DNA of 56,086 nucleotides, from the NCBI GenBank assembly GCA_029933005.1, contig JAOZOY010000004.1, forward strand, positions 1-56,086. The letters are read 5' to 3'. The stretch comes from Deltaproteobacteria bacterium. GTDB taxonomy: Bacteria; Desulfobacterota; Desulfobulbia; Desulfobulbales; SURF-16. Shown here piece by piece: positions 26,093 to 34,051 of this stretch. The notes below the pieces were generated by a model. That model worked only from the letters and a program-made list of their open reading frames with translations. It was not told where the DNA came from and did no database searches. Each line of letters begins with the position of its first letter. The stretch's first letter is position 1. The position numbers and the translations under genes were made by a program.

Positions 26093-28387
26093 TTATTCGC
26101 TGATGTGATCGTCTTCGGGTAATGATAATTTATCTGAAAATAGAGTGTCTCGGAAATCTTGTACCAAAGCCGCTGCTTTTTTCCTCGAACGCCAGGCTTT
26201 AACCGTTTTCTTGAATTTGTCGCCATACTCACTCATAAATTCATCCAGTGAATTTTTAAGATGTTTCAAGGTTGCGGTCAATGCAGACTTTTCTTCTTCA
26301 AGCCTTTTTATCTGTGCATTCAGTTCGGACTCCAGAGTGTTTTTTGCTTGTTCCATGGCCCTTAGATCTGCTTGATCCTGTTTGATAATATCAGTTTTTT
26401 CAGATTGAAGTTTTTTCTGGTTATTCAGCGATTGTTGTAATGTTGCTTCAGTATTTTGCAAGATCTGGGTTAATTCACTAAATTCCTTACTCTTTTTTTG
26501 GAATTCACTTTCCATGTTATCTAAATGTTCTTTGGTCGAACCTACTTCCTTGAAAATTTCACTGCGATCGGCATTGTGACCAAATACATTTTTGTAGTCA
26601 TCCAGTTGTTGGGAAAGCGCTACCAGTTTATTTTCTAAAACATTATTGACCTTGAGAGCGGAAAATTGGCTCATGATTTGAGAATAGTCCTGTAGCAATC
26701 GAACCGTGGCCAAAGCTGAATTATTCGAGTGATCGGCATTATAATAACCGAGTGAGGTGTCTCCCCGGACTACACATTTCAGCACCAGCTTAAACATATC
26801 CACCAGTCCCAGGTCCCTGAAAGCTGCATAAATATCCTGGAAATCACGTTCATCCATGAGTTCTCCAGGTGTTCTGCCACCCACTATCATCCGCTTGGAA
26901 CGATTGGAGAAGATACGTAATCCGGCGGTTTTGATCCTGTCGCCGACAAAGGTTTCAACCATAACAATTCCAATGGCAAAAATATCTGACGGGATACCTT
27001 GCTGGAAATGAATGTAAAGAATATCGTCAAATTCCCATGTCCCATTGTTGCTGTTTTGAAAAAAATCATCAATGGATACCTTCATCAGGGTATAATGATC
27101 AGTATCCGGTTTGTAAATGTCATCGCTGCTGAGCAGGACTTGATTCTCCTGTACTTCTTTGACAATAAATCCCCAGATGGAATTGTAGAGAATATCACCG
27201 GCTACAAAATAGTTATCCAGACTGTACATGGATGTAGATTCCGTACTCCGAACTTCACCTTTTTCATCACTTAATTCGCTCAGCCAGTTATCTTCATTTG
27301 TGAATTCTTCAAATTCCCATATCGGTTCAAGGAGCAGCTGTCCTTCCTTGTATGTAACATTGTAACGTTCAAAGGGCAGTCGTTCGGCCATGAACATGGT
27401 TTCGGGAGCGGCATAAATAACACGATTATTGGCTTCCTTGATGGGCAGGCCATAAGAAATCTGGTCCGGTCCCTGCATGTCATCCTTGACTACCCGGCCC
27501 AGATCAATCAGTATCGATTGTAATTCATAGAGATAACGGGTGGAGACGCCCTGTTGCCGTAACTCGTGCATCAGCTCCATGTCTTGTTTTGAAGAAAGTC
27601 TGAACATGATATTGTCAGGACAGATATCACCATGAACAATGCCTGACAGGTGGATTTGTTTCAACGCCTTTAGTAATTCCAGGACGAGATCCAGTCTTTC
27701 ATCAATCGGCAAATTTTGCTGCATCAATAAACGGCTTAGCGTGGTCTGGTATTTTTTCATGACCATGAGACGCTGACCATTTATAATTTGTACATTTAAA
27801 AATTGCGGGTCGCCGTTGTCACGAATTGCCTGACGAAAGGAATGACGCAGACGGTAAAGTTTGAGATTCCATTGAAAATCTTCCAGATTGTTGGCGGGCT
27901 TGTTTTCTATATACTTGTTTAATTTCTTGAAAGCGTGAGCGGCTTTATCGCCTGCCGCTTCCGGCGGAAGTAATTTGATGTCATAGGCATTGGTGCCGAC
28001 CGATGAACTCAATACCACCAACTGATCATTATTTAACAGCTCATCATCCAGATATTCCAGCAGATAGGGGTCATTAGCCAGAGATTTGGTTTTAAGAACC
28101 TCGCGGTCAAAGAATCTTTCCCGTGTTTCCGTTTCCGCAAGTGGCGCCGTTCCCTTGTAAGTATGAACAAATTTAACAGCTACTTTTCCACCTGTCTTCC
28201 TATCCACGCCATCCAGAACAAGAGCGCTGGCCCCAATGCCAAGGCGTGGTATACTGTTCTTGTCAGGATCAATGGGGAAAAAATATCGGTGGGTAGGAAT
28301 GGAAATATCCTTGAATGGATTATAATTCTGGAATCCGATTTCCGTATTCAGTTCCTGTTGTTTTGGCTCATTATTCACAAGTTTCAT
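26093..28387 (-). CDS. atypical Ser/Thr protein kinase with C-terminal coiled coil
   Basis: A 764-residue cytoplasmic protein. The kinase N-lobe shows the glycine loop GIGASALVLDG (residues ~50-60) and the ATP-anchoring Lys in KVAVKFV (Lys72). The C-lobe has the catalytic loop HGDICPDN (~249-256, where HRDLKPEN is usual), the metal-binding DLG (~294) and APE (~327). The helix-F motif SDIFAIG comes only at ~470, so about 140 residues are inserted between APE and helix F where 15-20 are normal. A second insertion of ~100 residues lies between the N-lobe and the catalytic loop. Residues ~610-740 form a coiled coil. There is no membrane segment. GGAG precedes the start. It follows a small tail-anchored protein gene 66 bp upstream, probably co-transcribed. 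Substrates unknown. Confidence 0.85.
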   Translation of the reverse strand: MKLVNNEPKQQELNTEIGFQNYNPFKDISIPTHRYFFPIDPDKNSIPRLGIGASALVLDGVDRKTGGKVAVKFVHTYKGTAPLAETETRERFFDREVLKTKSLANDPYLLEYLDDELLNNDQLVVLSSSVGTNAYDIKLLPPEAAGDKAAHAFKKLNKYIENKPANNLEDFQWNLKLYRLRHSFRQAIRDNGDPQFLNVQIINGQRLMVMKKYQTTLSRLLMQQNLPIDERLDLVLELLKALKQIHLSGIVHGDICPDNIMFRLSSKQDMELMHELRQQGVSTRYLYELQSILIDLGRVVKDDMQGPDQISYGLPIKEANNRVIYAAPETMFMAERLPFERYNVTYKEGQLLLEPIWEFEEFTNEDNWLSELSDEKGEVRSTESTSMYSLDNYFVAGDILYNSIWGFIVKEVQENQVLLSSDDIYKPDTDHYTLMKVSIDDFFQNSNNGTWEFDDILYIHFQQGIPSDIFAIGIVMVETFVGDRIKTAGLRIFSNRSKRMIVGGRTPGELMDERDFQDIYAAFRDLGLVDMFKLVLKCVVRGDTSLGYYNADHSNNSALATVRLLQDYSQIMSQFSALKVNNVLENKLVALSQQLDDYKNVFGHNADRSEIFKEVGSTKEHLDNMESEFQKKSKEFSELTQILQNTEATLQQSLNNQKKLQSEKTDIIKQDQADLRAMEQAKNTLESELNAQIKRLEEEKSALTATLKHLKNSLDEFMSEYGDKFKKTVKAWRSRKKAAALVQDFRDTLFSDKLSLPEDDHISE

Positions 28388-29844: not shown

Positions 29845-31491
29845 ATGGAAAAATCACACAACATTGCCCAGACCCTGGCAGACGTAGCCGCTCGTGCGCC
29901 GGAACGGACAGCCTTGATCTGCAGATCATTGACCGGTTACCGGAAATGGACGTTTGCGGAGTTTGCCGATTATGCTGCTGGATATGGCCGGGCACTGGTG
30001 GACAAAGGGGTTGAAAAGGGTGCCCGGGTCATACTCATGGTCAAACCTTCCATGGAGTTTGTCTGCCTGACTTTTGCCCTTTTCAGGATCGGTGCCGTGG
30101 TGATCCTTATTGATCCGGGCATGGGCTATAAAAATCTGCTGAAATGTATCGGCGCGGTCAGACCCCAGGTCTTTATCGGCATCCCGAAAGCCCATCTGTT
30201 TAGAAAATTTTTCCCTGCTCCCTTTAAAACGGTCAACCGTTCTTTTTGCATCGGTCCGTCATTTGGTCTTTTCGGCAGCCGTCTTTTGCCGCAAAGGCCG
30301 ATTGTATCTTCTTCATGTGTGATTTCGGAAGCCGATGATCCCGCTGCCATTATTTTTACCACCGGCAGCACCGGTCCGCCCAAGGGTGTTTGTTACAGCC
30401 ATGGTATTTTCCATGCCCAACTGCGGTTGATCAGGGATTATTATCAAATTGGCCCAACGGACATAGATCTGCCCGCCTTTCCCTTGTTTGCCCTTTTTTC
30501 AACTGCCCTGGGGGCCTGCGCCGTGATTCCGGATATGAATCCCGCCCAACCGGCCAAGGTCGATCCGAAAAAATTTATCAGGACCATTGTTGACCAGCGC
30601 GTGACCTATTCCTTTGGTTCACCGGCCATCTGGAACGTGGTCAGCCGCTACTGTCTTGATCAACAGCAGAAATTGCCCGTCAAAAAGATCCTGATGGCCG
30701 GCGCACCGGTTTCCGGCGAGTTAATTGAGCGGCTTAAAAAGATTATGCCCGAGGATGGAGAAATTCATACGCCTTACGGCGCCACTGAGTCTTTACCTAT
30801 CGCCTCTATAACCGGCACTGAGATCCTGGCTGAAACCTGGAACCTGACCCGCAAGGGGAAGGGCACCTGTGTCGGCAGACCCTTGCCGGGAATTGATATT
30901 CGGATTATTCATACCAGTGATGATCCAATTCAGCTCTGGGATGACCGGCTGGAAATGGAACTCGGTCTGATTGGTGAAATTGTTGTTAAAGGCCCGGTGG
31001 TCACAAGGAGCTATGCGGATAACGAACGGGAAAATCGTTTTGCCAAAATTGAGGACAGAAACGGCTTCTGGCACCGGGTAGGCGATGTAGGCTATTTTGA
31101 TGGTCGGAGCCGCCTCTGGTTTTGCGGCCGCAAGGGACATCGGGTCAAAACTGTTGACGGGACAATGTATACGATCTGCTGCGAGGCGATTTTTAATGAA
31201 CATCCCCAGGTGTACAGATCGGCCCTGGTGGGGATCGGTGAACCGGGCAGCCAGGTTCCGGTGATCATTGTCGAGCCTTTTGCCAGGATTCATGATGAGG
31301 GAAAATTGCTTGCCGAGCTGCGGACATTGGGCTTGCAAAACAGTCTGACCGCAGGAATTGATCATTTTCTTATTCATCCTGCCTTCCCGGTTGATATTCG
31401 TCATAATGCCAAAATCTTCCGGGAGAAATTGGCCGTATGGGCGGCTGAACAGGAGACAGAAGACAGGAGACAGGAATCGGGAGACGGATGA
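29845..31491 (+). CDS. oleC: OleC-type AMP-dependent acyl ligase / beta-lactone synthetase
   Basis: Adenylate-forming enzyme of 548 residues. The ATP-binding motif is IIFTTGSTGPPKGVCYSHG; the adenylation motif is HTPYGATESLPIAS; a C-terminal domain with FCGRKGHRVKT and VDIRHNAKIFREKLA follows. The overall sequence is of the OleC type, which converts a 2-alkyl-3-hydroxyacid to a beta-lactone in long-chain olefin synthesis. I chose ATG 29845 (MEKSHNIAQTLADVAARAP) because the 22 extra residues of the TTG start at 29779 are unlike the family; there is no clear ribosome site. The last ~14 residues (EQETEDRRQESGDG) are encoded by an AGACAGRAG microrepeat that seems to have been added to the end. 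Overlaps oleD by 4 bp. OleA and OleB are not in the window. Confidence 0.85.
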   Translation: MEKSHNIAQTLADVAARAPERTALICRSLTGYRKWTFAEFADYAAGYGRALVDKGVEKGARVILMVKPSMEFVCLTFALFRIGAVVILIDPGMGYKNLLKCIGAVRPQVFIGIPKAHLFRKFFPAPFKTVNRSFCIGPSFGLFGSRLLPQRPIVSSSCVISEADDPAAIIFTTGSTGPPKGVCYSHGIFHAQLRLIRDYYQIGPTDIDLPAFPLFALFSTALGACAVIPDMNPAQPAKVDPKKFIRTIVDQRVTYSFGSPAIWNVVSRYCLDQQQKLPVKKILMAGAPVSGELIERLKKIMPEDGEIHTPYGATESLPIASITGTEILAETWNLTRKGKGTCVGRPLPGIDIRIIHTSDDPIQLWDDRLEMELGLIGEIVVKGPVVTRSYADNERENRFAKIEDRNGFWHRVGDVGYFDGRSRLWFCGRKGHRVKTVDGTMYTICCEAIFNEHPQVYRSALVGIGEPGSQVPVIIVEPFARIHDEGKLLAELRTLGLQNSLTAGIDHFLIHPAFPVDIRHNAKIFREKLAVWAAEQETEDRRQESGDG

Positions 31492-31506
31492 CGGAAGAGA
31501 CAGGAA
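31448..31506 (+). repeat. GACAGAAGACAGGA microrepeat at the oleC/oleD junction
   Basis: Degenerate tandem units of the AGACAGRAG type span the end of oleC and the first codons of oleD. They are probably slippage-prone and account for the low-complexity tail of OleC and the six residues before the internal ATG of OleD. Confidence 0.6.
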
Positions 31507-32510
31507 TGAAGAAAGTCATTGTAACCGGCGGCGGTGGTTTTGTTGGCAAAGCTATTGTCCGCTTGCTGCTGAACCGGGATATCATGGTCACAGTTGTCGG
31601 CCGCAATACCTATCCTGATGTGCTGAAAATGGGGGCGGATGTTGCAGTGGGTGATATCCGGAACCGGGATTTTCTGGTATCCGCATGTGAAAATGCGGAT
31701 ACGATTTTTCATGTGGCTGCAAAAGCCGGTATTTGGGGCAGTTGGAAGGATTATTACTCGGTCAATGTTACGGGCACGGAAAATGTCCTGGCCGCCTGCC
31801 GGGCCAATCGCATTGGTCATCTGGTCTATACCAGCACACCCAGCGTCGTGTTTGCCGGAGATGATCTTTGTGGAGTTGGTGAAGAGACCCCATACGTGGA
31901 AAATTTTCTTTGCCATTATGCCCATACAAAAGTGCTGGCCGAAAAGATGGTACTGGCTGCCAACTGCGCTGAGCTGAAAACAACAGCCTTGCGGCCCCAT
32001 CTGGTTTGGGGGCCGGGAGACACGAATTTGATCCCTCGCCTTGTGGAACGGGGCCGCAAGGGGCAATTGAAAATTGTCGGCGATGGCACGAATATGGTGG
32101 ATATCTCTTATATTGAAAATGTCGCCTCCGCCCATGTCCTGGCGGCAGACAGCCTTCATGGAGACGGCAGTGCGGCAGGTCATGCCTATTTTATCTCCCA
32201 GGATGATCCGGTGAATCTCTGGGGGTGGATCAATGATCTCTATTTTCGCCTGGAGATAGCGCCGGTGAAAAAAAGGATTGGTTTCAAAAAGGCCTATTTT
32301 GTCGGAACTGTTCTTGAAAAAATTTATTCCTGGCTTAAGATAAGAGATGAACCCCGCATGACGCGTTTTCTGGCTGAACAGCTGGCCAGATCCCACTGGT
32401 TTTCCATTCAGAATGCCAGGGATGATTTTGGCTATACTCCTGTCGTTTCCACGGAAACAGGCATGGAGAGGCTGCTGAAATGGGTTAGAGATTCCGGATT
32501 GCTGGCCTGA
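31488..32510 (+). CDS. oleD: OleD-type NAD(P)-dependent reductase/epimerase family protein
   Basis: Extended short-chain dehydrogenase of 340 residues. The Rossmann motif TGGGGFVGKA is near the N-terminus, FHVAAKAGIWG follows strand 4, and Tyr/Lys of the catalytic YxxxK appear in HYAHTKVLAE. ALRPHLVWGPGD is typical of OleD/3-beta-hydroxysteroid-dehydrogenase-like proteins. In olefin synthesis OleD reduces the 2-alkyl-3-ketoacid made by OleA to the hydroxyacid, which OleC then lactonises. ATG 31488 overlaps the oleC stop (ATGA); ATG 31506 (MKKVIVTGG) is a plausible alternative since the residues between lie in a microrepeat. A copy of the interspersed repeat follows. Confidence 0.86.
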   Translation: MTEETGMKKVIVTGGGGFVGKAIVRLLLNRDIMVTVVGRNTYPDVLKMGADVAVGDIRNRDFLVSACENADTIFHVAAKAGIWGSWKDYYSVNVTGTENVLAACRANRIGHLVYTSTPSVVFAGDDLCGVGEETPYVENFLCHYAHTKVLAEKMVLAANCAELKTTALRPHLVWGPGDTNLIPRLVERGRKGQLKIVGDGTNMVDISYIENVASAHVLAADSLHGDGSAAGHAYFISQDDPVNLWGWINDLYFRLEIAPVKKRIGFKKAYFVGTVLEKIYSWLKIRDEPRMTRFLAEQLARSHWFSIQNARDDFGYTPVVSTETGMERLLKWVRDSGLLA

Positions 32511-32680: not shown

Positions 32681-32722
32681 GTGAATTTCTGAATCTCGGT
32701 ACTGACATAAAGGAATCATGAA

Positions 32723-34051
32723 GTGAAATCTTTTGACGGAACGGAAAATGATCATAAAATGCTAATCGGCTGGACGATGACAAAGGACTATGAGGAGGCG
32801 GAAGAACTTGCCGGGGAGTGTGTTCGTCAAGGGCTGGCCGATACCGCCCAAGTGGAAGGTCCGCTCCGTTCTTTCCATATGAATAATGAAAAACTGGTCA
32901 GTATTGAAGAATACCGCTTGACCTTGCATTTTTTTCCCTTCCGTGCCGAACAGATCGGCTTGTGGATTAAAAAAAATCATTCTCAAGATATGCCGCAATG
33001 GTTGACGGTAGCCGTACGACACTTTCCGGATGAAAGTTCATGTCATGGTCAGGAAAGTAGGCGCATAACGGCGAATGAGGTTGTTGAACTGTCAAGGAGA
33101 GGGTCGGAATTATTAAAAAAACAAAATTATTCTGAGGCGGAAAAAGTTTTTTTTGAGGCACTGAAAAAGGAACCTGGGAATTCTTTCATCCTGGTGGGGT
33201 TAGGTGATCTGTTTCGGGAAACAAAACAGTTTACCAGGGCACTTCACTACTACCAGAAAAATTTGGAAATTGATACGGGAAACACCTTTGCGCTACGGGG
33301 GATCGGAGATACGTATCGCGGCCTGAACAAGCCGGAAAAATCTATTTTCTACTGGCAAAGATATTTGGAGCAGAAAAGCGGTGATATTCATGTTATGACC
33401 CGCCTGGCGGATTCTTATGTAAAAAAAAGGAATTTCAGTACAGCGGAAGATCTCTATCTGCAGGCTCTGGCCTTGGATCAGAATGATAAATATGTTTTAC
33501 GGGGAATAGGAAATCTCTATTATAAGAAACGTGATTTTCAACAGGCCTTAACGTATTTCAAGAAGTTTTTGGAGTTAGATGACCGTTATGTCGCCGTTCT
33601 GACCATGACCGGAAATATTTATCGCCGTCGCGGAGAGTTTGACCAGGCAGTTTCATATTATGAAAAATGTCTCAAGCTGGAGCCGAAAAATACTTTTGCT
33701 CTCTATGGAATGGGTGATACCCTGCGCGGAATGAAGAATTATCATGGCGCCATTGAATGTTGGAAAAAAATCCTGGAAAAAGAGCCGGCCAACCAGAATC
33801 TCCTGTCCCGGGTGGGTGATGCCCTGGTTCTGCTGGACCGGCTGGATGAGGCGATTTCTTGTTATAAGAGAAGTCTCGATATCAGTAATGAAACATTTGC
33901 TCTTCTTGGCCTTGCCCGGACTTATTGTATGCAGAAAAAATATGTGGAAGCGGAAGGTTATTGCCGGAAAATTTTGGAGAGGCAACCTGAGAATGTTCGT
34001 GCCAGAGACGAATTGGAAAAGATTAGTAGGCTGATGGATGATGGCTGCTAG
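32723..34051 (+). CDS. CutA1-like domain fused to tetratricopeptide repeats
   Basis: A 442-residue protein with an unusual architecture. Residues ~13-103 read as a CutA1 domain: LIGWTMTKDYEEAEELAGEC (the ferredoxin-like start, with the residue pattern of DEEEAEKIA), GLADTAQVEGPLRSFHMNNE (position of the SxYxW region), then RAEQIGLWIKKNHSQDMPQW (pattern L..LI...H.Y..P.I). From ~115 to ~435 there are about nine TPR units (for example NTFALRGIGDTYRGLNKPEK). No signal or membrane segment. It starts at GTG 32723 with AAGGA 8 nt upstream; ATG 32759 would still keep most of the CutA part. CutA1 trimers are linked to metal tolerance or signalling, and TPRs bind proteins. The fusion's role is unknown. 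A terminator follows. Confidence 0.8.
   Translation: MKSFDGTENDHKMLIGWTMTKDYEEAEELAGECVRQGLADTAQVEGPLRSFHMNNEKLVSIEEYRLTLHFFPFRAEQIGLWIKKNHSQDMPQWLTVAVRHFPDESSCHGQESRRITANEVVELSRRGSELLKKQNYSEAEKVFFEALKKEPGNSFILVGLGDLFRETKQFTRALHYYQKNLEIDTGNTFALRGIGDTYRGLNKPEKSIFYWQRYLEQKSGDIHVMTRLADSYVKKRNFSTAEDLYLQALALDQNDKYVLRGIGNLYYKKRDFQQALTYFKKFLELDDRYVAVLTMTGNIYRRRGEFDQAVSYYEKCLKLEPKNTFALYGMGDTLRGMKNYHGAIECWKKILEKEPANQNLLSRVGDALVLLDRLDEAISCYKRSLDISNETFALLGLARTYCMQKKYVEAEGYCRKILERQPENVRARDELEKISRLMDDGC

Follow-up and report, generated by a model that had tools for sequence, protein, structure and literature searches.

The window, by which we mean the whole 56,086-nucleotide stretch of DNA analysed, encodes a protein in which a CutA1 domain is followed by nine TPRs, and since 33 genomes carry this arrangement in a single open frame, it is no assembly error. 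We consider with moderate confidence that the window protein binds a partner through its TPRs and keeps the CutA part as an oligomerising scaffold, and that fusions with an intact CutA1 domain also do the CutA job. The features of the gene are listed in Table 1.

Table 1. Features of the CutA-TPR fusion gene and its start region, in window positions.
Feature	Position	Strand	Evidence
CutA-TPR fusion gene of 442 aa, read from a GTG	32723..34051	+	Pfam matches; open in one frame in 33/257 genomes
AAGGA motif resembling a ribosome-binding site (putative function), 8 bases 5' of the GTG	32710..32714	+	
Alternative ATG start (residue 13), in line with where most relatives begin	32759..32761	+	
Diverged CutA1 domain, ferredoxin-like fold	32759..33031	+	Pfam, AlphaFold2, Foldseek, residue counts
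Linker, low model confidence	33032..33061	+	Full-length model
Nine TPR hairpins, with conservation on the concave side	33062..33982	+	Model, entropy, invariant-position counts
C-terminal capping helix	33995..34042	+	Full-length model

A CutA1 domain joined to nine TPR hairpins

PF03091 (CutA1) matched residues 17-100 of the window protein in a Pfam search with 36.9 bits (E 3.1e-9), and residues 1-116 searched alone scored 38.7 bits; the curated gathering cut-off of Pfam for this family is 22.4 bits, and a match above it was found in all 33 of the fusion genomes. A PDB search with the single window sequence returned weak matches only, the best two being designed CutA-fold cages, and a search with a profile built from the N-terminal parts of 24 fusions returned natural CutA1 proteins, the best of which was 6gdu (Synechococcus CutA) at 4.8e-16. 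Since fold comparison with the model of the whole protein gave almost solely TPR proteins, the CutA part was judged from an AlphaFold2 model of the domain alone, built from two sequences (mean pLDDT 71). This model has the ferredoxin-like order strand-helix-strand-strand-helix-strand, with the central two strands long and the last strand short, and its C-terminal quarter (residues 77-104) has pLDDT under 50. The 50 Foldseek matches listed for it were CutA1 proteins or designed protein cages throughout, several of the latter being named as CutA-fold designs, with E values from 1e-5 to 3e-4 and TM scores by query length of 0.57-0.72.

An earlier note on this DNA had assigned residues 13-103 to CutA1, and this identity is borne out by both the match to the N-terminus and the ferredoxin-like fold. 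Its description of a CutA1 pattern followed from start to end was overstated, because the window domain is diverged: it keeps nine of 18 hallmarks (positions common to 85% or more of 51 stand-alone rows) and lacks the C-terminal YxxW element, which in intact relatives is present as a helix near the position of the linker. The equivalog model NF041095 (dival_cat_tol_CutA) was absent from the 25 listed of 42 matches to the window protein; an intact fusion (L012) fell below its cut-off of 120 bits, at 71.8 bits, as did the stand-alone CutA of the window's own genome, at 98 bits.

The regular 34-residue TPRs, nine in number, that the earlier note had described after the CutA1 domain were recovered as tandem hairpins. 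TPR_1 matched the window protein with 164.7 bits over 8 stretches, Pfam giving eight or nine TPR stretches after CutA1, and the full-length model contains nine hairpins and a capping helix over residues 102-428 from the ATG, mostly with pLDDT over 80. The full-length alignment (A1) held 23 of the 25 fusions, L017 (cut by a contig end) and L024 (a near-copy of L023) being left out; a second alignment (A2) held 24 of the 25. For repeats 1-8 of 23 proteins, mean entropy was 0.67 at the concave positions, which we take to be repeat positions 2, 5, 9, 12, 13, 33 and 34, as compared with 0.70 in the core and 1.32 at other positions, and the concave-versus-other difference was reached in 0 of 20,000 shuffles. 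Conserved concave residues include D150, R153, N175, R180, D184, R187, N286, R289, R290, N311, D320, R323 and D354 (ATG numbering).

The near relative L033 carries the identical AAAGGAATCATGAAGTGAA at the AAGGA motif upstream of the fusion GTG. Overlapping this GTG, at 32718-32726, lies a two-codon frame (ATG AAG TGA) that is also identical in L033; it could be left over from a start site or serve translational coupling. No signal peptide was seen by eye, and the fusion protein is probably cytosolic.

Distribution and descent of the fusion

How widely the fusion occurs, a question that the earlier note had raised, was answered by surveys that found it conserved and recurrent within one taxonomic order. 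It is present in one open frame in 25 of 58 relatives, with 334-517 codons from stop to stop (the frame of 334 being cut by a contig end), and the profile of the fused N-terminal part matched 33 of the 257 class-sample genomes over 145 positions with 191-249 bits, all of them in the window's own order. A phylum-wide sample of 395 genomes, which holds few genomes of that order, contained three fusions (201-249 bits), all in the window's family, the next best match to the profile being a stand-alone protein at 102.6 bits. A contig search gave one near relative (L033, 90% identical) and one distant TPR match, and plasmids gave no match to the whole fusion protein at E 1e-20. When neighbouring open reading frames were clustered for 20 fusion loci, 8 TPR-only loci (which extend only about 1.5 kb each side) and the window, none was common to more than 6 of the 29, and no conserved neighbour indicating a pathway was found among these loci.

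Within the window, the region just upstream of the fusion gene (29848-32510) encodes an AMP-binding enzyme and then a 3-beta-HSD type dehydrogenase, a pair that resembles oleC-oleD of olefin synthesis. Further upstream, a 764-residue open reading frame (26096-28387) has a weak protein kinase match (36.9 bits, cut-off 31.7).

The fused CutA has replaced the stand-alone gene in most fusion genomes. A CutA1 match was found in 225 of the 257 class-sample genomes, and a non-fused CutA in 3 of the 33 fusion genomes versus 192 of the 224 others (Fisher p 1.2e-18, with relatedness ignored). The fused domain is well preserved (84-100 bits, PF03091) in 29 of the 33 fusion genomes, and in these no stand-alone CutA was found; a second PF03091 match, in G251, came from a 78-codon fragment located at the end of a contig, and this fragment scored 109 bits against the fused profile. 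Diverged fused domains (38-49 bits, PF03091) are those of G000 and G001, from the window's genus, and of G002 and G010 (another genus, which groups with the window's). Three of these four genomes (G000, G001 and G002) have a stand-alone CutA of 113-116 bits, and none was found in G010, whose genome is 82% complete.

A tree was built from 79 CutA domains (101 columns), comprising 28 of the 33 fusions and 51 stand-alone rows, 25 from the order and 26 of the 57 from phylum loci; hallmarks were counted on the same rows. All 28 fused domains formed one clade with support of 100/100, many other forks of the tree being unresolved, and CutA1 was most likely fused to the front of the TPR superhelix once. 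Family f91 has the stand-alone proteins closest to this clade, and they joined it only weakly (59/90). The stand-alone CutAs of the window's genus and G002 formed a group of their own (99/89), separate from the fused clade, and are therefore no recent duplicates of the fused domain. They also fell outside the group that contains most stand-alone copies of the order, and it is possible that the stand-alone CutA of the window's lineage was acquired from elsewhere.

The TPR module was also found without CutA, in G029, G033, G043 and G065, four more members of the class (328-459 bits), and in five genomes elsewhere in the phylum (221-285 bits, 277 genomes). The near TPR-only orthologs keep 82 of 84 invariant concave cells, and the far relatives keep 83/140 invariant cells at concave positions, 90/115 in the core and 74/115 at other positions, so that among far relatives the concave face is no better preserved than the rest. 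A TPR tree of 27 fusions and 9 TPR-only rows did not recover the fusion as one clade, and a single clade was not rejected (p-AU 0.10). Taken together, the module without CutA, the conservation in near orthologs and the TPR tree suggest that the groove, together with its partner, is most likely older than the fusion and that CutA was added later, perhaps with loss of the CutA part again in some TPR lineages. One of the TPR-only orthologs (L166, contig 449) belongs to a genome, G033, that is 99% complete and has no CutA1 match at all.

Two further observations concern CutA genes outside the fusion. At 14 of 27 phylum loci (L068-L094, L068 included, picked by similarity to the fused domain), a hisG motif follows shortly after the stand-alone cutA; none of the 30 other phylum loci and none of the 25 order loci shows this adjacency. 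The two genes downstream of cutA at L068 are hisI and hisG (Pfam), and the other 13 loci have similar reading frames; only hisG was counted because the hisI motif search itself gave none. A link between CutA and histidine synthesis is possible. Other CutA genes (L183 and L196 to L201) are also surrounded by long open frames; read by eye, most of these frames look like unrelated upstream frame, and no TPRs were seen in them. The CutA genes of L196 and L197 lie inside longer open frames; the upstream part of the L197 frame looks like a Mut7-C type nuclease domain, so that L197 may hold either a further CutA fusion or a pair of overlapping genes.

Possible roles of the fused CutA1 domain

Five residues, G4, W5, F58, W69 and W81 (ATG numbering), were present in 28/28 fused domains and in 0/51 stand-alone rows. 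Hallmarks are kept in 393 of 432 cells by the 24 intact fused domains, as compared with 36 of 72 by the four diverged domains, and all four of the latter keep all five fusion-only residues (29 of 32 cells over all eight fusion-enriched positions). This retention is less telling than the loss of hallmarks, since the positions were picked from intact rows; the link between hallmark loss and a stand-alone CutA, for its part, is not a replicated one, because it represents one phylogenetic event or at most two. Comparison of the window with L033 gave a dN of 0.050 and a dS of 0.287 for the CutA part and a dN of 0.045 and a dS of 0.241 for the TPR part, so that dN/dS was about 0.18 in both (from small counts). 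The diverged domain is therefore still under purifying selection.

We propose that the concave groove of the older nine-TPR superhelix would hold an extended segment of a conserved protein partner, and that the fused CutA1 domain, a predicted trimer by homology to CutA1, would present three such TPR arms. The trimerised CutA part would then provide higher affinity and gather three partners in one place. The ordinary CutA job, too, would in most lineages fall to the fused CutA, because the stand-alone gene has been replaced and the search for other copies gave none; in the window's lineage this job was probably handed to the stand-alone copy of separate descent. Here the fused CutA is most likely purely an oligomerising and positioning scaffold, since a stand-alone CutA is present, half of the hallmarks are lost and the fusion-specific residues are kept.

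Alternatively, the fused CutA could be a PII-like sensor, in which a small molecule bound between subunits alters the grip of the three TPR arms on their partner and the fusion-only tryptophans form or couple the binding site. We regard this as rather unlikely: the window's lineage has lost residues typical of CutA, the Tyr of the HPYE motif and those of the C-terminal YxxW, and still keeps the protein, and we are aware of no physiological ligand that is established for CutA. However, the exclusiveness of the five residues to fused domains would fit such a site, a structure of Synechococcus CutA is titled as having Bis-Tris bound (6gdv), and a small-molecule carrying or signalling role for CutA is proposed in the title of one reference. 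We also hold as doubtful a natural three-armed hub with a division of labour, the CutA trimer acting as control unit, the TPR arms as its built-in effector and a CutA ligand as the switch for binding by the groove; the window's lineage would then be a separation-of-function case, its scaffold retained and its sensor handed to the stand-alone copy.

It is improbable, in our judgement, that the window's fused CutA is a decaying relic with no present role on an ordinary TPR protein. The missing hallmarks and YxxW element, and the existence of TPR-only orthologs, would agree with decay, but the CutA part has a dN/dS like that of the TPR part, the fusion-only residues were retained in all of the diverged rows, and the window domain still models as a CutA fold.

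The earlier note had proposed a new scaffold, perhaps a metal- or nucleotide-sensing one. The combination of CutA core and TPR arm is real, recurrent and under purifying selection, whereas metal sensing is not supported: the residues that we take to be the metal (copper) ligands of E. coli CutA (C16, H83 and E90) are not conserved in the fused domains. The C16 position is Thr in 28 of 28 (Cys in 0), the H83 position is His in 4 of 28, and the E90 position is Glu in 5 of 28. A scaffold for metal sensing or tolerance is thus very unlikely: although the Pfam description names CutA1 for divalent-cation tolerance, a Synechococcus cutA deletion mutant had no heavy-metal phenotype (PMC7694984), and recent work is said in a 2021 paper (PMC8469502) to speak for CutA1 as a carrier of small molecules or a signalling protein.

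Comparison with known systems

Both domains are known, and no paper describing a natural CutA-TPR fusion was found among the titles and abstract openings listed by searches of the open-licence literature. CutA is widespread but disputed in its function, and in about thirty genomes the only copy found is permanently tied to a TPR groove, so that the partner of this groove would point directly to the CutA pathway. The window's lineage, with both a diverged fused copy and a stand-alone CutA, offers a built-in comparison of the scaffold role with the ordinary CutA role.

The fusion shares the PF03091 match and the ferredoxin-like fold with stand-alone CutA1 proteins (E. coli 1naq, P. horikoshii 1uku), and its intact members share the hallmark cells counted above; it differs from them by its nine TPRs, its G/W/F/W/W signature and, in the window copy, the loss of half of the hallmarks. 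The best structural match of the TPR part was the TPR superhelix of O-GlcNAc transferase (6eou, 1w3b; Z 30.1 over 320 residues, rmsd 3.2), which likewise has conserved Asn/Asp on its concave face, but the fusion has no transferase domain and the likeness may reflect merely a long regular TPR superhelix. The DUF34/NIF3 proteins also join a CutA-like domain to another domain, in their case a PII-like/CutA1-like insert (PMC8469502), but this domain is inserted inside another fold and is not joined to TPRs. Designed cages (8ump, T33-ml35) combine CutA-fold and TPR-fold modules in one assembly, as does the fusion, but these are artificial and are made of two separate chains, unlike the natural protein, in which a single chain carries both.
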